NCBI GenBank assembly: GCA_947037115.1
Contig: CAMQTN010000007.1
Coordinates: forward strand, 1 to 64,000
DNA length: 64,000 bases
Reading direction: 5' to 3'
Source: an uncultured Lachnospiraceae bacterium
GTDB lineage: Bacteria > Bacillota > Clostridia > Lachnospirales > Lachnospiraceae
Shown: in pieces, positions 37,224 to 47,656 of the stretch
How positions within the stretch are numbered: the first letter of the stretch is position 1
How the letters are laid out: each line of letters opens with the position of its first letter
Translations under genes and position numbers: made by a program
The notes under the pieces: model-generated
What the model was told of the DNA's origin: nothing
The model's input: only the letters and a program-made list of their open reading frames with translations
The model's database searches: none

Positions 37224-37252
37224 TTGACATTTGGTGTACAAAATGTTATCCT
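37224..37252 (+). promoter_or_regulatory. promoter of BlaI/M56 operon
   Basis: TTGACA (37224-37229), 17-base spacer, TATCCT (37247-37252). It overlaps the first of two repressor-like boxes. Confidence 0.75.
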
Positions 37253-37276
37253 CTAGTAGAGTACAAAGTGTAATCC
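37236..37276 (+). promoter_or_regulatory. paired BlaI-type operator boxes
   Basis: GTACAAAATGTTATCC (37236-37251) and GTACAAAGTGTAATCC (37261-37276) differ at two positions and are 25 bases apart. The TACA...TGT(A) pattern is that of BlaI/MecI operators. The first covers the -10 element and the second covers the predicted start region, a layout expected for autorepression by the BlaI-type protein downstream. Confidence 0.65.
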
Positions 37277-37289
37277 ACTGGAGGAGGAA

Positions 37290-37387
37290 GGTTGAATAAA
37301 TTCTCTGATGAGCAATTTATTCAACCAGAAATTTGTGCAGAAGCATCACAAATTCTCTTGAGCGCAGAGCAGAATCTGATATTCTGC
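37290..37387 (+). promoter_or_regulatory. three-hairpin leader of the BlaI-type gene
   Basis: Hairpin 1 (37290-37326): GGTTGAATAAATT and AATTTATTCAACC form 13 perfect pairs, plus CTC/GAG inside. Hairpin 2 (37330-37354): AATTTGTG/CACAAATT, 8 pairs. Hairpin 3 (37369-37387): GCAGAAT/ATTCTGC, 7 pairs. A small GCAT/ATGC hairpin follows before the RBS. None has a clear T run. It may be a regulatory leader or a small repeat element. Confidence 0.6.
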
Positions 37388-37428
37388 CCGCGTTCCTCGG
37401 CATAGAATGCTTCGGAATGGAGGTAAAA

Positions 37429-37806
37429 ATGCAGCAAATATCAGATTATGAATTGGAACTTATGAAAATTATTTGGGCTAACGGCGGCACAGCTTTATAT
37501 GCGGAAATTGTCAAGGCGTTAGAGGATAAAGGGACTCCGTGGACGAAAAACACAATTATAACGTTGCTCTCGCGTCTGACTAATAAGGGCTTTTTGAAAG
37601 CAAGTAAAACAGGTTTTCGCAATCGGTATATTGCGGTTGTTTTAGAAACGGACTATCAGGAGGAGCAGACAAAAACCCTGCTGGATAAACTCTATGAAGG
37701 CAATGCGAAAGGTCTTGTTTCCACGCTTATTCAAAAAGACTTGCTTTCCCCTGATGATTACGAGGATTTGAGAAGATATTGGAAGGGCGGTGAAGGTGAT
37801 AAATGA
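37429..37806 (+). CDS. BlaI/MecI family transcriptional repressor
   Basis: Winged-helix repressor of 125 residues, the usual size. The DNA-binding part (SDYELELMKIIWANGG...TPWTKNTIITLLSRLTNKGFL) and a C-terminal dimer part are clear. In the family, the partner M56 protease triggers cleavage of the repressor and so derepression. ATG at 37429 with GGAGGT is chosen; the track start at 37333 lies in the hairpin leader. It overlaps the M56 gene by 4 bases (ATGA). Confidence 0.93.
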   Translation: MQQISDYELELMKIIWANGGTALYAEIVKALEDKGTPWTKNTIITLLSRLTNKGFLKASKTGFRNRYIAVVLETDYQEEQTKTLLDKLYEGNAKGLVSTLIQKDLLSPDDYEDLRRYWKGGEGDK

Positions 37807-39803
37807 GGGAAACACTAAAAGTTGTTTTATCGCTTTCCCTTTCCGGGACTCTGCTGATTCTTTTGCTTTTCCTGCTCCTTTCTTTGCTCAAAGGGCGGTT
37901 GAGCAAACGATGGCAGTATTATATCTGGCTCGTGGTGGTTGCCCGGCTGTTGTTTCCATTTGCGCCGGAAACAAACCTGATGGCAGCCCTTTTTCAAGGG
38001 ATTGACCAGGCAGCGGAACAGGCAGAGGGAGTTTCCACTTATACGCAGCAGGGCAGCATAGTTGATAAATCTCAAACAGACGAAGTGACAGATGGGAAAA
38101 ATAATCTGTATAGTGAACAAACAGATCCGGCGGAATCGGTCAATAGTCCTGTTAGAAGCAGCGTATCAACGGTATGGCAAAGCCTTTGGATCGGCTGGCT
38201 GGCAGCAGCGCTCATTCTGTTTGTTCGGAAAATCACGATTTATCAGGACTTTGTTAAATATATTCGGGCTGGTTGTGTGGAAGTGGCGGATATTGATTTG
38301 TTGGAACGGTTTGGAAAACTGGTGGAGCAAAACCGGATAAAAACCACGGTAGAGCTATGCGCGAATAATCTGATTTCCTCACCGTTGTTGATTGGGTTTT
38401 TCCGCCCCTGCATTATGCTTCCTGCTGCTGACCTGCCGCCTGCAGATTTTGACTATACCATCCGGCATGAATTGATGCACTTCAAGCGGCGGGATATGTT
38501 TTATAAATGGCTGGTACAGTTTACTGTCTGTATACATTGGTTTAATCCGTTTGTTTGCCTGATGAGCCGGGAAATAGGCAGGTTATGTGAGCTTTCCTGT
38601 GATGAGGCTGTCATATGGGAACTTGACACACAGGGGCGGCGTGCCTATGGAGATACCTTACTAAATGCCATAGGGATCGGTGGAAGCTATAAGGATTCTC
38701 TTGTTTCCCTGACATTGAACGAAAGCAAGGAATTATTGAAAGAAAGGCTGGATGCAATTAAGAATTTTAAGAAAATACCCCAATGGGCAGTTTTTACATC
38801 CCTGTTTCTTACGGTTATGCTTGTCTGTAGTTTTAGCTTTCTGGGAGCGTATGCAGCTAATACACATAATGGGGCATATCTTGATGCCGGGGCGAATACC
38901 GTTTCTTTACGTACACATTCGGTTGAACTCATCGGCTTTCGACAAGGGGAAGAGACAACAACCAAAGAAGTTGCAATTCACATTACAGAAGACGATGCTA
39001 AAATTCAGTTAAATGCGGCTGCCGACGGGGACAGCCACAGAACGCTTGAAGTGATTGATCCAAATGGTGAAGTGGTAAGAACATATACATTTAATCAAGA
39101 TGGATTTATAGCAGGAAGTCAGGAGTACCTTTATGGAAAGGATATGATTATGGTGACAGATGTTGTGTATCCCGGCACCTGGTATGTGCGGTTAAGTACA
39201 GATCAGACACCGGCTGAAAAAACATCTGTAACCGCAAAGCTGATTGCTCCATTTGTGTGGGGGTTTGCATCTGATGCGGATGAAGCATCTGCTGAGATTG
39301 CGGATGATTCTCCGCTGTCAGGTCAGAGGTATGATTATTACAGATCTTACGAGCAAACGAAAGAGGATATTCAAAATGGCTATATCGTGAATACAGGTGT
39401 TTCCTTTTCAGAACAGGCCATGCCAACGGTAATAGACGGGCGGGGAACCCGCTTTTATGTGAATCATGACAATAGTATCGATATTTCAATCACACTAAAA
39501 AATCTTATAGATGGAACTGGTCGTGATAGCTGGATGCCTGATTCCTTTGTAAGTTTTGAGGTGTATGACCCGTCAGGTAAAGTCGCCTATTCTTTTTATA
39601 AGGAAGGAACAGACATAGAAAATGCGGTTGACATAAATACTGAATTAGAGGTATATCCGGGAGAGTGGCAGTATAAAATTTCTTTTGCATATACGACGAA
39701 TGGCATCGATCCGTCGGACATGGAAATTGCAGTTAGGTATAAAACCATATTTGAGGATGATATTCAATGGCTTGTTGATAACAAACTTAATATGGTTAAT
39801 TAA
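37803..39803 (+). CDS. M56 (BlaR1-like) sensor peptidase with non-PBP outer domain
   Basis: Membrane sensor protease of 666 residues. Two N-terminal membrane helices, a third at about residue 120, then the M56 zinc protease with HELMH at 222-226 and the second motif ELSCDEAV, and a last membrane helix at about 325-348. In BlaR1/MecR1 the outside part is a penicillin-binding domain with STxK. Here the last 310 residues contain no such motif; they look like two beta-sandwich units (THSVELIGFRQGEETTTKEVAIHI...; YVNHDNSIDISITLKNLIDG...). So the signal is unlikely to be a beta-lactam. Coupled to the BlaI-type gene by ATGA. Confidence 0.85.
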   Translation: MRETLKVVLSLSLSGTLLILLLFLLLSLLKGRLSKRWQYYIWLVVVARLLFPFAPETNLMAALFQGIDQAAEQAEGVSTYTQQGSIVDKSQTDEVTDGKNNLYSEQTDPAESVNSPVRSSVSTVWQSLWIGWLAAALILFVRKITIYQDFVKYIRAGCVEVADIDLLERFGKLVEQNRIKTTVELCANNLISSPLLIGFFRPCIMLPAADLPPADFDYTIRHELMHFKRRDMFYKWLVQFTVCIHWFNPFVCLMSREIGRLCELSCDEAVIWELDTQGRRAYGDTLLNAIGIGGSYKDSLVSLTLNESKELLKERLDAIKNFKKIPQWAVFTSLFLTVMLVCSFSFLGAYAANTHNGAYLDAGANTVSLRTHSVELIGFRQGEETTTKEVAIHITEDDAKIQLNAAADGDSHRTLEVIDPNGEVVRTYTFNQDGFIAGSQEYLYGKDMIMVTDVVYPGTWYVRLSTDQTPAEKTSVTAKLIAPFVWGFASDADEASAEIADDSPLSGQRYDYYRSYEQTKEDIQNGYIVNTGVSFSEQAMPTVIDGRGTRFYVNHDNSIDISITLKNLIDGTGRDSWMPDSFVSFEVYDPSGKVAYSFYKEGTDIENAVDINTELEVYPGEWQYKISFAYTTNGIDPSDMEIAVRYKTIFEDDIQWLVDNKLNMVN

Positions 39804-39869
39804 GTCACTATTTCTATTTTACCGCGGCTGTGGATATTTCATCTGAGACTATTGCCGAAAGAGGTTTCC

Positions 39870-39974
39870 ATGCCTGTATATGTCGGGGCTGATTTCAGTG
39901 GAATGTCAGTAACCGTGCAGGAGCCTGTGGGCATGGGTATCAACGGAATTGAGAAAGGAGAGGTCATGTTATGA
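39870..39974 (+). pseudogene. small frame after M56 gene, coupled to lipoprotein gene
   Basis: A 34-codon frame (MPVYVGADFSGMSVTVQEPV...EKGEVML) in the same frame as the M56 gene after its stop. Its stop overlaps the next gene by ATGA, as real upstream genes do in this window. No RBS was seen for its own ATG. It could be the tail of a lost or shortened gene, or chance. Confidence 0.3.
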
Positions 39975-40681
39975 AGAATAGAATGATATTATTGTTTGCT
40001 GCGGCAATAATGATTTTTGCAAACAGCGGATGTACTGCCCAGGCGGGTGTTTCGTCCGGCGTTACTTTGGATAGAAAAGAAAGAACAAATTATGATATTG
40101 CGGCTGAAAATATTCACCATGTTAATATCAGCGGCAATGCCCGCTCTGTTATTATCAGGCAGAGTGAAAATGATTATTTTGAATTTTATAATGGGGATCT
40201 GAACACCGGTCATACATATGAAGTCCGATGTGAGGAGAATGGTGATACGGTTGACATCAACATTTTGATGGAAAATGCGGAAGACGATAATGATGTTCTA
40301 GGCTCTCCCGTTATTGCCATACCTCAAAAAGAATTTGAAAAAATTGAAGTGACAGGCGATTTCAGCCATATATCTTTATACACTATAAACGCAGATGTGC
40401 TGGTTCATGCAAACAAATCATTTGTATATCTTGATTTAGAGGCTGATCATTTAGAACACAATATCACGCTGGATGGTTCGGAAGCAGATGCATTTAGAGG
40501 TGTTTCGGTTTATTTGGATAAATTATCTAATAATGTAAGAATGGAGTTGAACGTCATTCAAGGTGGTACAATAAACGATCCGCAGAGCATGCTTAAAGAG
40601 AACATACTTGAATCAGATTCAGGGAAACCGGTCATAAGTATCAATAATACAAAAGAAATAAATCTTTATAGAAAAGAATGA
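39971..40681 (+). CDS. DUF4097-like lipoprotein
   Basis: Exported protein of 236 residues with a lipoprotein signal ending FANSGC (Cys21). The mature part is beta-rich with repeated short strands (NIHHVNISGNARSVIIRQSENDYFEFY, EFEKIEVTGDFSHISLYTI), as in DUF4097 beta-helix proteins. RBS GAAAGGAGAGG. It follows the M56 sensor, so it is likely in the same regulon. Function is unknown; a surface or sensor-accessory role is inference. Confidence 0.7.
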   Translation: MKNRMILLFAAAIMIFANSGCTAQAGVSSGVTLDRKERTNYDIAAENIHHVNISGNARSVIIRQSENDYFEFYNGDLNTGHTYEVRCEENGDTVDINILMENAEDDNDVLGSPVIAIPQKEFEKIEVTGDFSHISLYTINADVLVHANKSFVYLDLEADHLEHNITLDGSEADAFRGVSVYLDKLSNNVRMELNVIQGGTINDPQSMLKENILESDSGKPVISINNTKEINLYRKE

Positions 40682-42854: not shown

Positions 42855-43550
42855 ATGAAACTGATAACATTAAAACAAGTAATAACCATGCTGTGCTGTT
42901 GTTTGGCATGGGTAAGCGCATCAACAGCTATCCCCAAAAATGACACGGTGGGTAAACCTGCGGACACTGCTGTTGAAGCGGACAGCGGTTTGTCCACCGG
43001 GAGCAATTTGAAAATCACGGCTGAAAACGCAACTGTGGAGGTTCAGACGGCCGGTGACGGACAATACCGCTGCGACTATGATGAAAATAATTGTACTGTG
43101 ACCACGGTTACAAGCGATGACGCCTTTGAAATTACGGTGACAGGGAAGCCGGACGCCGCATTCGGGTGGGAGGACCGTGTGATGGTCTACATTCCCGCTC
43201 AAACCTATGACCTGATCACAGGCGTTTCGGAAAAGGGCGGGCTGAAGCTGTCTGGCCTCAATACCGATATTGATGTAACAAACAACGCAGGTTCCGTCAT
43301 GATAGATCTTCCGTCTGACTATGACAGGATGCTGAACTATACAGGAATTTCGGCTTCCGGCGCGGTGATCCTGAACGGGAATTCGGATTTTACCGTCAGC
43401 GCGAAGTTTACTGCCTGCTCAGTTACCGTTCCCGACACCTGGCCCCCGTGCGGGAATGGCAGTTCGGAATACAGCTACACAAGCGGCAGCGGTACAGCGA
43501 AGGTCAATATTGAGCTTACCAGCGCTTCATTTTCTCTCAATAATGAATAG
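42855..43550 (+). CDS. exported DUF4097-like protein
   Basis: Protein of 231 residues with an N-terminal signal-like segment (ITMLCCCLAWVSASTA) including three adjacent cysteines. The rest is beta-rich with short strands (NLKITAENATVEVQTAGDGQYRCDY..., GGLKLSGLNTDIDVTNNAGSVMIDL), as in DUF4097 proteins that normally continue with a long beta-helix. It resembles in style the lipoprotein at 39971. RBS AAAGGTAGG is weak. It is followed by the tail of a lost permease gene. Confidence 0.6.
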   Translation: MKLITLKQVITMLCCCLAWVSASTAIPKNDTVGKPADTAVEADSGLSTGSNLKITAENATVEVQTAGDGQYRCDYDENNCTVTTVTSDDAFEITVTGKPDAAFGWEDRVMVYIPAQTYDLITGVSEKGGLKLSGLNTDIDVTNNAGSVMIDLPSDYDRMLNYTGISASGAVILNGNSDFTVSAKFTACSVTVPDTWPPCGNGSSEYSYTSGSGTAKVNIELTSASFSLNNE

Positions 43551-43574
43551 GCAGTTTTACCATCGTCCTGTATC

Positions 43575-43706
43575 ATGTGGACACCGCCAGCCACCCGGGT
43601 GCTGATCGTTGTCCTGTTTGTGATTGTGGCAACCCTTGCCGCCATCTATGCCCCGGCCAAACGGATGCGGAATATGGCGGTGACGGAGACCATCAACGAG
43701 TTATAA
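43575..43706 (+). pseudogene. C-terminal remnant of FtsX-type ABC permease
   Basis: An open frame of 43 codons ending RVLIVVLFVIVATLAAIYAPAKRMRNMAVTETINEL-stop. This is the last membrane helix and tail of MacB/BceB-like permeases (AxYAPxxRxxxMxVxExI(N/R)xx). The rest of the gene is missing. Together with the P-loop scrap at 47666 it implies that an ABC exporter was once encoded around the two-component system. Confidence 0.7.
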
Positions 43707-43777
43707 GTGTACAGGAATGTATTGGCGGATAAAAAGATGAACCTTTCCCATTAAATTAGCCCGTAGGAGGTGACGTA

Positions 43778-44452
43778 ATGGACTATAAACTATTGCTCGT
43801 GGACGATGAACCGGACATCGTCACCATGCTTGCCAGCTTCTTTTCTGGAAAGGGCTATCAGGTTCTAACTGCCCACAGCGGAGCGGAAGCTCTCAATAAA
43901 ATAGAGCAGGCCCCGGACATTATCCTGATGGACATCAATATGCCGGATATGGACGGCTTGGAAGTCTGTGAACTGATCCGGGATCGTGTCTTCTGCCCTA
44001 TCCTCTTCCTAACAGCCCGGATTGAAGATGCTGACAAGGTGAAGGGCTTTTCTGTGGGCGGAGATGATTATATCCTGAAACCATTTTCATTGATGGAGCT
44101 GGAGGCGAGAGTCTGCGCCCACCTGCGGCGGGAGGCGCGGCACAAGGCGGATACCCGGTTAAAGTTTGCCGGAGACCTTGCCATAGATTATACGCAGCGT
44201 CAATTGTTCTATGGGAAAGAGGAAATTTCCGTGACGAAAAAGGAATTTGACATTGTGGAGTTGCTGTCCCAAAATCCAGGGCAGGTGCTTGACAAGGAAC
44301 GAATTTACGAGAAGGTCTGGGGCTATGACAGCGAGGGGGACAGTAGCGTGGTGGCGGAGCATATCCGCAGAATCAGGACAAAAATCGCCGCTTATACAGA
44401 CCAGCCTTATATTGAAACAGTTTGGGGGTGTGGCTATAAATGGAGCCGTTAA
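43778..44452 (+). CDS. OmpR/PhoB family response regulator
   Basis: Response regulator of 224 residues. Receiver domain (1-118) with acidic pocket VDDEP, phosphoacceptor Asp52 in LMDINMP, conserved Thr in FLTAR and Lys in LKPFS; winged-helix DNA-binding domain (about 128-224, ISVTKKEFDIVELL...VVAEHIRRIRTKI...VWGCGYKW). RBS AGGAGG. The kinase gene starts 13 bases before its stop. In Firmicutes this type often controls neighbouring ABC exporters for antimicrobial peptides. Confidence 0.95.
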   Translation: MDYKLLLVDDEPDIVTMLASFFSGKGYQVLTAHSGAEALNKIEQAPDIILMDINMPDMDGLEVCELIRDRVFCPILFLTARIEDADKVKGFSVGGDDYILKPFSLMELEARVCAHLRREARHKADTRLKFAGDLAIDYTQRQLFYGKEEISVTKKEFDIVELLSQNPGQVLDKERIYEKVWGYDSEGDSSVVAEHIRRIRTKIAAYTDQPYIETVWGCGYKWSR

Positions 44453-45618
44453 AACGTCGGTGGCGCGATCTCTCCCTTCGGAAGACCTTGGTGGTCTATA
44501 TCACCGCCGCCGCCCTTCTGGCCCTGATCCTCTGTGGGATGACCAATGACCTGTGCGGCATGGGGATTAGGGAGATCCACGCCGGCTACCTGGACGGAAT
44601 GGAGAAATACTACCTCACCAACGAGCAAGGGGAGCGGCTGGGGCAGGCGGCCTACATCGGCGCCGATGCGATCCCCTTGTCCCCCGAGGACCAGCGGACA
44701 GTGGACATCCTCCGGGCCCTGCCCACGGTGACGGCGCCGGTGTGGTCCGCCCTCTGCATCCTGGGGGCGGCGCTGCTTTTCTACCAGAACAAGCTGAAAC
44801 GGCCCCTGGCAGAGCTGCGGCTGGCATCGGAAAAAATCTCCCAAAACGACCTGGACTTTACCGTCACCGCTCACAGCAGGGATGAGCTGGGGCAGCTCTG
44901 CGCCTCCTTTGAGACCATGCGGGCGGCCCTGGCCCAGAACTTCTCGGAGATGTGGCGGCAGATGGAGGAGCGCAAGCGGCTGAATGCCGCCTTTGCCCAT
45001 GATCTTCGGACACCGCTCACTGTCCTGAAGGGATACAATGAAATACTGCAGGCCAGCGGAGACGAACAGACCCGCACCACCGCCATCACCATGCAGCGGC
45101 ATATCTCCCGGTTGGAGCACTATGTGGACACCATGAGCCGGCTGCGCCGGCTGGAGGACACACAGCCCACCTGCCGGCAGACACCGCTGAAAGCTCTCGC
45201 GGCCTCTTTGTATGAAAGCGGGACGATCATCTGTGAACGGGCAGGAAAATGTTTCTCCATACAGAACCGGACAACCTCTCTGGCCCTGCTATTGGACGGA
45301 GATCTGATCTCCCAGGTATACGGTAATTTGATGACGAATGCCTCACGGTACGCTGCCTCACGGATCGAGCTCTGTCTGGAAGAAACACAGGAGGGGCTGT
45401 TGCTGTCTGTATCGGATGACGGACCCGGTTTTGATAAAACCAGCCTGGAAAAAGCGGTTGATCCTTATTTCACCAGGGAAAAGGCAGACCACTTTGGCAT
45501 TGGCCTCTACACCAGCAAAATGCTCTGTGAACATCATGGCGGTTGGCTGCGCCTTGAGAATACCCCTTCCGGGGCCAGGGTAAGATGTTTTTTCAACACA
45601 CGTTTTTTTCAAAAGTAG
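44440..45618 (+). CDS. sensor histidine kinase
   Basis: Membrane kinase of 392 residues. Two membrane helices (about 16-36 and 102-120) enclose an outside loop of about 65 residues. A HAMP domain follows, then HisKA with His187 in FAHDLRTPLTVLKGY and HATPase with NLMTNASRYA, DDGPGF and GIGLYTSKMLCEHHGG. The first 700 bases are markedly GC-rich compared with the end of the same gene and with neighbours, suggesting mosaic origin. It overlaps the regulator gene and probably forms one signalling pair with it. Confidence 0.95.
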   Translation: MEPLKRRWRDLSLRKTLVVYITAAALLALILCGMTNDLCGMGIREIHAGYLDGMEKYYLTNEQGERLGQAAYIGADAIPLSPEDQRTVDILRALPTVTAPVWSALCILGAALLFYQNKLKRPLAELRLASEKISQNDLDFTVTAHSRDELGQLCASFETMRAALAQNFSEMWRQMEERKRLNAAFAHDLRTPLTVLKGYNEILQASGDEQTRTTAITMQRHISRLEHYVDTMSRLRRLEDTQPTCRQTPLKALAASLYESGTIICERAGKCFSIQNRTTSLALLLDGDLISQVYGNLMTNASRYAASRIELCLEETQEGLLLSVSDDGPGFDKTSLEKAVDPYFTREKADHFGIGLYTSKMLCEHHGGWLRLENTPSGARVRCFFNTRFFQK

Positions 45619-45644
45619 ATAGAATATTGGAAATTGTCTTCTAT

Positions 45645-45675
45645 ACTCTCTATGTACCCCACAGAGAGTATTTTT
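45645..45675 (+). terminator. terminator between kinase and ABC genes
   Basis: ACTCTC and GAGAGT (with a two-base bulge, then TGT/ACA around ACCCC) followed by ATTTTTG. It would make the downstream ABC genes partly independent of the two-component operon. Confidence 0.6.
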
Positions 45676-45710
45676 GTTCCTGAAAATCTGGACAAAGGAG
45701 GAGTTTTTAT

Positions 45711-46583
45711 ATGGAACTGAGCGCAGTCGATCTGACAAAACGATATGGCTCAAAAACAGCCGTGAATCGTCTGAATGCTACATTGACGAATGGCGTGTAC
45801 GGACTGCTCGGTGCGAACGGCGCAGGAAAGACGACCTTCATGCGCCTCTTATGCACTGTCCAACGCCCTACCTCTGGAAAAATTGTTTTAGATGGCAAGA
45901 GTATTTGGAAGCTTGGAGAGCGGTATCGGGATGTTTTGGGCTATCTGCCCCAGCACTTCGGATACTATCCCGATTTCACCGCTTTGGATTTTTTGCTGTA
46001 CGTTGCGGCATTAAAAGGGCTTGACAACAGGAAGGCAAAAAAAGTTTCCAGCGAATTACTGGAAGAGGTGGGCCTGTCCGGGGAAAGCCGATGCAAGATC
46101 AAAACCTTTTCTGGCGGCATGAAACAGCGTCTGGGAATTGCGCAGGCCATGCTGAATGACCCATACATTTTGATTCTGGATGAGCCGACAGCAGGACTTG
46201 ATCCGAAAGAGCGTGTGCGTTTCCGCAATCTCATCAGTGCCTTTTCAAAGGACAGGATCGTGATTCTATCAACGCACATTGTTTCTGACATAGAATTTAT
46301 TGCAGAGAGGATCATGATGATGAAAGCCGGCGAGATCATTCACTTCGGCAGGCCCCATGAGATCACTTCCAGGATCAGCGGCTGTGTCTGGGAGTGTTCT
46401 GTCCCCACAAGCCGGGCGGAGCAATATACCGTTTCTCTGAATATCAGTAATTTGCGAAATGAAGAGAACGGCAGAACGGTACTGCGGGTGATCGCAGATC
46501 AGCCTCCTGTGGCCGGCGCAGTCAAGGTGCAGCCCAATTTGGAGGATTTGTTCTTATATTACTTTAAGGAGGAGGAACAATGA
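45711..46583 (+). CDS. ABC transporter ATP-binding protein (BcrA/CcmA type)
   Basis: ATPase of 290 residues for an ABC-2 exporter. Walker A GANGAGKTT, Q-loop YLPQHFG, signature FSGGMKQRL, Walker B ILILDEPTAGLD, and switch His in ILSTHIV. A C-terminal extension (about 215-290) is typical of the bacitracin/lantibiotic resistance subgroup. RBS AAAGGAGGAG. Its stop overlaps the permease ATG. Regulation by the adjacent two-component system is likely by context, not shown. Confidence 0.93.
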   Translation: MELSAVDLTKRYGSKTAVNRLNATLTNGVYGLLGANGAGKTTFMRLLCTVQRPTSGKIVLDGKSIWKLGERYRDVLGYLPQHFGYYPDFTALDFLLYVAALKGLDNRKAKKVSSELLEEVGLSGESRCKIKTFSGGMKQRLGIAQAMLNDPYILILDEPTAGLDPKERVRFRNLISAFSKDRIVILSTHIVSDIEFIAERIMMMKAGEIIHFGRPHEITSRISGCVWECSVPTSRAEQYTVSLNISNLRNEENGRTVLRVIADQPPVAGAVKVQPNLEDLFLYYFKEEEQ

Positions 46584-47656
46584 AACAGCTGATTCGACTT
46601 GAATTACGAAAAATCTTTTCCAAACGTCTTACGCAGCTTGATTTGGCTATGGTGCTGCTCCTGTCGGCGTTCCTTGCCTTTTCGACCTATCAGAATAAGT
46701 ATGCCTCTGACGGTGCGGGCAATGAGGGAACCGGCCGGACTGCCGTAGAAATTGATAAGGCGGTTGCCGCAAGATATTCCGGGATTTTGACAGACGAGAA
46801 GGTACAGCAGATGATTTCAGAGATTGTCCCTAAATCTGGAGAGAATGGACTCAACGCAATATACATTTACCGAAACACCATACAGTCCGCTGTGTCTGCC
46901 CGCTTTTCTGACATATACGGGAACTGGAATGGTCTGCGGGTTTCCGATGTGTTTGGCAACGAGACCATTAAAATCGGATATGTGGATGGCTGGCTGAGTA
47001 CAAGTCAGAACCTGGTAAAAATATTGACGATCTTCTCCTTTTTTATCATCATGATGATCGCTCCGGTTTTTTGCGGAGAATACAGCGGAGTTGACAATAT
47101 CATCCTGTCCACCAGATACGGCAGGACGAAATGTGCAATGGCAAAGGTGATTGCAGGCGTTCTTGCCGCTCTGATTACATCCATTGTGGTTTTAGCGGTG
47201 AATCTCCTGATGGCATTTGCATTTTACGGAAGCGAAGGCCTGGATTGCAGCATTCTGTTTGCCCAGCTGACTTACATTGAGGGAAGCATCCCGTTCAATA
47301 TCACATGTGGCACACTGTTGGCATATCAAGCGATATTGGCTGTTACAGGCGCGCTTGGGGTGACTGGCATTACACTGATCTTCTCCGCTGCCTGCAAAAA
47401 TCAGATGATTGCATTCGTAGTCTCTGCCGCTGTATATGGGCTGCCTCTTTTCTTTCCGGCTGCGGAAACGAGCGCACTGTTCAGGTTGGCTGTACTTCTT
47501 CCTGCCTACCATGCGCAGTTCGTTTCCCTCATGTCTGTGGGGCAGATGAGCGGTATATTTCTGTATGCAGTCTGGGCTGTCCCTGCGGCATTGACTTTCA
47601 TTGTGGCTGGGAGTATTTTCTCCCGCAAAGTTTTCGCAAAGCATCAGGTCTCATAG
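46580..47656 (+). CDS. ABC-2 type transporter permease
   Basis: Membrane protein of 358 residues, partner of the ATPase upstream (ATGA overlap). One N-terminal helix (about 18-36) is followed by an outside domain of about 110 residues and then five helices (KILTIFSFFIIMMIAPVFCG...GKVIAGVLAALITSIVVLAVN...). GEYSGVDNIILSTRYGRTK is typical of clostridial ABC-2 permeases. The exported substrate is not known. Confidence 0.88.
   Translation: MKQLIRLELRKIFSKRLTQLDLAMVLLLSAFLAFSTYQNKYASDGAGNEGTGRTAVEIDKAVAARYSGILTDEKVQQMISEIVPKSGENGLNAIYIYRNTIQSAVSARFSDIYGNWNGLRVSDVFGNETIKIGYVDGWLSTSQNLVKILTIFSFFIIMMIAPVFCGEYSGVDNIILSTRYGRTKCAMAKVIAGVLAALITSIVVLAVNLLMAFAFYGSEGLDCSILFAQLTYIEGSIPFNITCGTLLAYQAILAVTGALGVTGITLIFSAACKNQMIAFVVSAAVYGLPLFFPAAETSALFRLAVLLPAYHAQFVSLMSVGQMSGIFLYAVWAVPAALTFIVAGSIFSRKVFAKHQVS

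Follow-up and report, generated by a model that had tools for sequence, protein, structure and literature searches.

A predicted BlaR1/BlaI-type switch with a beta-sandwich-like outer part, and a structured leader repeat, in Lachnospiraceae

The window, a stretch of 64,000 nucleotides from the draft genome (3.77 Mb, 86% complete) of a gut bacterium of the Lachnospiraceae, carries a short operon whose first two genes are related to those of the BlaR1-type switch with which staphylococci detect penicillin. A gene for a blaI-type repressor of 125 amino acids (37429..37806, + strand; Penicillinase_R E 1e-28; MecI 1sd6 E 8.5e-14) shares four bases (an ATGA overlap) with a gene for a 666-amino-acid M56 protein (37803-39803, +; Pfam Peptidase_M56 E 2.5e-60, residues 8-319), and a gene for a lipoprotein of 236 amino acids follows (39971..40681, +). 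All three are open reading frames, and an ORF check confirmed the genes and the span 37429-40681 given in a preliminary description of this DNA. blaI and the M56 gene are paired in every relative with a readable upstream side, in unrelated neighborhoods. The closest named source of a relative of the outer part of the M56 protein is an Acetatifactor metagenome-assembled genome (L001). A defence or phage function of the operon was rejected, since PADLOC gave no match and PHROGs matches are confined to the M56 core and the repressor. Elsewhere in the window, at 42855-47656, a DUF4097/LiaG-like gene (Pfam E 1.6e-7) is followed by genes for a response regulator, a histidine kinase, and an ABC transporter, which are possibly a Lia-like envelope stress cluster near the M56 operon.

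The operon is preceded by a promoter, TTGACA-17-TATCCT with an extended -10 element (37224..37252, +), that is conserved in six orthologous loci. Sequence comparison locates two putative BlaI operators there, which are likewise common to the six loci. Box 1, GTACAAAATGTTATCC (37236..37251, +), overlaps the spacer and the -10 element, and box 2, GTACAAAGTGTAATCC (37261..37276, +), has a TACAnnnTGTA core. In a seventh genome (G060), an identical A-to-G change is present in both boxes (TACAGAATG...), as expected if one protein binds both. The intact pair has no second occurrence in its own draft genome, from which distant sites may escape at 86% completeness, and the circuit therefore looks local and self-controlling. 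Among the sites examined in that genome, no further one is intergenic, and a regulon elsewhere was rejected because the near-perfect matches examined (C12, C26) fall within genes. The simplest reading is that the blaI-M56 switch mainly controls itself, and no dedicated output gene is conserved with the pair among relatives. L001, L004, and L005 each have a divergent ABC transporter gene whose start lies on the other side of this short intergenic region, and we infer that it could be co-controlled there by the operators. The divergent genes in L004 and L005 encode a lantibiotic-type ABC transporter and a two-component system.

The membrane metalloprotease part of the M56 protein (residues 1-350; 37803..38852, +), delineated by Pfam and by alignment with BlaR1 (PMC9834060), is intact, in agreement with the preliminary description: HELMH lies at residues 222-226 and ELSCD at 263-267. 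In an alignment with Staphylococcus aureus BlaR1 (8exp; E 8e-9), H222, E223, H226, D231, E263, D267, Y282, and R315 correspond to H201, E202, H205, D210, E242, D246, Y261, and R294, whose roles in BlaR1 have been described (PMC9834060), so that the BlaR1 catalytic residues are all kept. An M56 gluzincin core whose catalytic residues are identical, an adjacent BlaI repressor, and TACAnnnTGTA-type operators at the promoter are shared with the BlaR1/BlaI and MecR1/MecI systems of staphylococci and bacilli (MEROPS M56). Unlike BlaR1 and MecR1, however, the protein has no C-terminal class D-like penicillin-binding sensor with SxxK and KTG, and no gene for a beta-lactamase or PBP2a as output is nearby; no beta-lactamase gene was recognized when the ORFs surrounding the operon were read. 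Against the NCBIfam blaR1_generic equivalog, the M56 protein scores 145.5 bits, below the 400-bit cut-off.

The two cleavage sites can also be predicted by alignment. The BlaR1 self-cleavage site, Ser283-Phe284, aligns with Thr304-Leu305 of the M56 protein, and the BlaI site, Asn101-Phe102, aligns with Thr99-Leu100 of the blaI product. Thus, the predicted P1' residue is Leu in both sites (T-L twice), whereas in S. aureus it is Phe in both. Among paralogues and relatives, the P1' residues of the M56 self-site and the BlaI site are Leu/Leu in L025, L043, and L077, Met/Met in L029 and L094, and Met/Leu in L073. Small as this sample is, it suggests that the two sites are matched to one pocket.

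The remaining 316 residues (351-666) form the part predicted to lie outside the cell; Pfam gives nothing above cut-off for them, and no PDB sequence matches. The preliminary description reported that STxK, SxN, and KTG motifs are lacking. SxN and KTG/KSG are indeed absent, but a single S-x-x-K (SFYK, 597-600) had been missed; it is not conserved, and reads SFYR in L001 and SFYE in L002. A PBP-like outer domain, which would have run counter to the original proposal, was rejected: neither sequence nor predicted fold matches a penicillin-binding protein, whereas the same Pfam scan, with the M56 relative L067 as positive control, finds a transpeptidase domain with an E-value of 3.8e-41.

Structure prediction, as had been proposed, yields two beta sandwiches. 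Domain 1 (approximately residues 366-481; 38898..39245, +) is predicted from the model and its Foldseek matches to be a PPC-like beta sandwich, and domain 2 (approximately residues 508-666; 39324..39800, +) is, by profile comparison, a probable repeat of it. The AlphaFold model, based on an alignment of six similar sequences, is weak as a whole, with an overall pLDDT of 52.6, with approximately 65-84 in most blocks of domain 1 and less than 50 in much of domain 2. Its best Foldseek match is the tandem collagen-binding domains of ColG (5iku, E 2.4e-7), and a PPC domain (5sv5) also matches, with a TM-score of 0.62 by target length. Pfam PPC (PF04151) is detected in two of seven members with an E-value of 0.0014, which is below the curated cut-off. 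Domain 1 can be aligned with domain 2 (probability 90, E 1e-6), whereas 30 column-shuffled controls reach a probability of at most 1.5, and reversed or unrelated profiles give nothing. With the domains of clostridial collagenases (PF04151; 5iku, 5sv5), the outer part shares the tandem beta-sandwich fold in the model and a DPxGxV...YPGxW strand pattern, in addition to the sub-threshold Pfam match, although here the sandwiches sit on a membrane protease sensor. We therefore propose, with low to moderate confidence, that the outer part is a tandem pair of beta-sandwich repeats similar to PPC/collagen-binding domains.

The outer part is 73-89% identical across six other loci, and its dN/dS of 0.13-0.18 indicates that it is under purifying selection. 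It is rare, with matches in 4 of 299 genomes in an even draw from the family, two of which are to the C-terminal part only. A search for this region on other M56 proteins had been called for in the preliminary description: of 33 compared by hhalign, a different M56 protein (L010/L042) alone matches, through domain 2, with a probability of 98.8. Domain 2 is also found as a stand-alone secreted protein of 228 amino acids (L011/L043) near a blaI-M56 pair that has a different outer part. These two occurrences point to a module that moves among such systems. Plasmid copies match in the core and not in the outer part.

A sensor other than a penicillin-binding domain is, on the sequences compared, the rule in this group, and the idea that the outer domain is unique in kind does not hold. 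Only 1 of 20 scanned M56 relatives (L067) has a transpeptidase domain, and the other 19 show no named sensor domain above cut-off. The genome itself encodes eight M56 proteins, one of which (L038) carries DUF4825. Such Lachnospiraceae M56 proteins have the same core, with 40-52% identity in the nearest, and usually a blaI gene, but their outer parts have no similarity detectable by profile comparison. A non-penicillin M56 sensor is thus ordinary in the group, and the novelty of the system lies in the outer module. The part of the literature that we covered does not describe any M56 sensor carrying this outer module.

The lipoprotein was originally presented as a partner in the set; comparison of loci does not bear out a fixed role. 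Its gene is behind the M56 gene in three of eight readable loci (the window, L001, and L007) and absent from that position in L002, L003, L005, L006, and L009; L004 is left out of this count because its sequence ends too soon. Homologues with 57-63% identity occur in other genomes, by themselves or downstream of other genes, and we therefore rejected the lipoprotein as a fixed partner. On this comparative evidence, the gene does not define the system but is optional, either a passenger or an output. Its assignment as DUF4097-like stands by fold only: neither Pfam DUF4097 (PF13349) nor any other HMM matches, and the top Foldseek match of a model with pLDDT 56 is 4qrk (E 7.7e-4), annotated as a Clostridium sporogenes "putative cell adhesion protein". 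The protein thus resembles DUF4097/LiaG-type surface proteins in its model fold, but differs in lacking an HMM match and in being mobile and optional here. It is less constrained than the outer part (dN/dS 0.31-0.37 versus 0.13-0.18). The gap between the two genes is 167 bases in the window (39804-39970), 18 in L001, and approximately 210 in L007; that in the window appears to contain the end of a lost coding sequence, which L007 also has.

We consider it probable that the operon is a self-regulating proteolytic switch of the BlaR1/BlaI type in which a tandem PPC-like beta-sandwich sensor takes the place of the penicillin-binding domain. BlaI would repress its own operon by binding the two tandem boxes that cover the -10 element and the start region. 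The M56 protein would reside in the membrane with its zinc protease (HExxH...E) in the cytoplasm and the two sandwiches outside. Binding of a surface ligand to the sandwiches would shift the membrane part, and the protease would then cut BlaI at Thr99-Leu100 and so derepress the operon, including the lipoprotein gene in this clade. The genes, the catalytic residues, the operators with their conservation, and the selection on the outer part are read from sequence, whereas topology, BlaI cleavage, and derepression are inferred by analogy with the BlaR1 mechanism. Acylation by a beta-lactam is unlikely because the outer part has no catalytic serine motif, and with the penicillin-binding part replaced, the switch almost certainly detects a signal other than penicillin. 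An envelope signal is a reasonable guess; a surface polymer, a peptide, or a cell-envelope component as the ligand is likewise a guess. The earlier proposal of a proteolytic circuit responding to something other than beta-lactams stands as regards an intact BlaR1-type circuit and a conserved non-PBP outer part under selection, and fails in that the outer domain is not unique in kind and the lipoprotein is not fixed.

In a different and unlikely arrangement, the sandwiches would anchor the protein to the cell wall or surface, and the trigger would be the state of the membrane or another protein, for instance the lipoprotein in a co-sensor role. Polymers are the usual ligands of PPC-like domains, and the lipoprotein is itself under constraint and follows the M56 gene in three loci, most closely in L001; yet it is missing behind M56 in five loci and occurs alone elsewhere, and the outer part is the more strongly constrained of the two. 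Very improbably, the operon is a cassette that has no function at present, being silent or in decay: its rarity, its varied neighborhoods, and the repeat inserted in its leader would be compatible with this, but the frames are open, catalytic residues and operators are intact in relatives, and dN/dS is well below 1. We regard as least probable of all that a diverged sensor domain still detects beta-lactams or other cell-wall antibiotics, as M56/BlaI homology and the antibiotic-peptide-type transporter and two-component genes adjoining in L004 and L005 might suggest, given that conserved SxxK, SxN, and KTG are all absent, that a true PBP relative was found at once where this domain gave no match, and that no beta-lactamase gene was recognized around the operon.

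Between the operators and blaI lies a structured repeat of 137 nucleotides (about 37288..37424, +), which forms the 5' leader of blaI and whose end supplies the Shine-Dalgarno sequence of that gene. It was delineated with a covariance model and by comparison of orthologous operons: the site is filled in the window and L002 and empty in L001, L004, L005, L006, and L009 (L009 by position). The repeat has no match in Rfam 15, and the part of the literature that we covered contains no description of it. Five copies in the genome of the window precede blaI, nth, hom, ilvB, and clpX (names read from translations). The covariance model detects the repeat in 48 of 60 genomes of the same genus, with a maximum of at least 55 copies per genome, and, across the family, in 37 of 249 genera. 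The repeat loci are 37286-37428 of the window, L125-L153, and L159-L198.

In an alignment of 69 rows, 95.7% of cells pair, double changes occur in 28 of 44 pairs, and the covariation score is 0.38, versus 0.125 for shuffled and 0.04-0.07 for slid alignments; these values come from rows fitted to the covariance model, which favors structure. Double changes were already present at 16 pairs when the first five copies were aligned without the model. Directly downstream of the repeat, 62 of 68 copies have the start of an open frame of 60 codons or more, with identical spacing in 48. In every copy that has sequence at these positions, the last helix pairs CUUC with the Shine-Dalgarno GGAG. GGAG also occurs in 64% of left flanks, compared with 5% of random 14-mers, and the left and right flanks of a copy share longer words than re-paired flanks (1 of 500 shuffles is as high), a pattern that target duplication would produce. 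Some copies lie within the tail of another; L002 (4296-4578) has two in tandem, the second having entered the first at its GGAGGA end.

These sequence patterns give the repeat the appearance of a mobile element that targets ribosome-binding sites. It is similar in kind to the pneumococcal BOX, RUP, and SPRITE repeats (PMC3049150), but strict placement at Shine-Dalgarno sites is not reported in the part of the literature that we covered. Our tentative proposal, held at somewhat less than even confidence, is that the repeat belongs to an undescribed family of structured mobile elements that target Shine-Dalgarno sequences. An insertion would leave translation possible and set a conserved CUUC/GGAG hairpin over the Shine-Dalgarno sequence, and dozens of unrelated genes per genome, in this case a blaI-M56 operon, would come under one type of RNA leader. 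The leader repeat may be a more novel find than the sensor and, if its mobility and its targeting of ribosome-binding sites are confirmed, would be the more widely interesting of the two.

For the sensor, the clean promoter, the two operators, and the predictable cleavage sites make the system directly testable. Penicillin sensing by BlaR1 appears as one case of a modular family that, in gut Lachnospiraceae, keeps core and repressor and exchanges the outer sensor. With eight M56 proteins of unrelated outer parts in one genome, M56/BlaI pairs are a candidate general class of surface sensing beside two-component systems.
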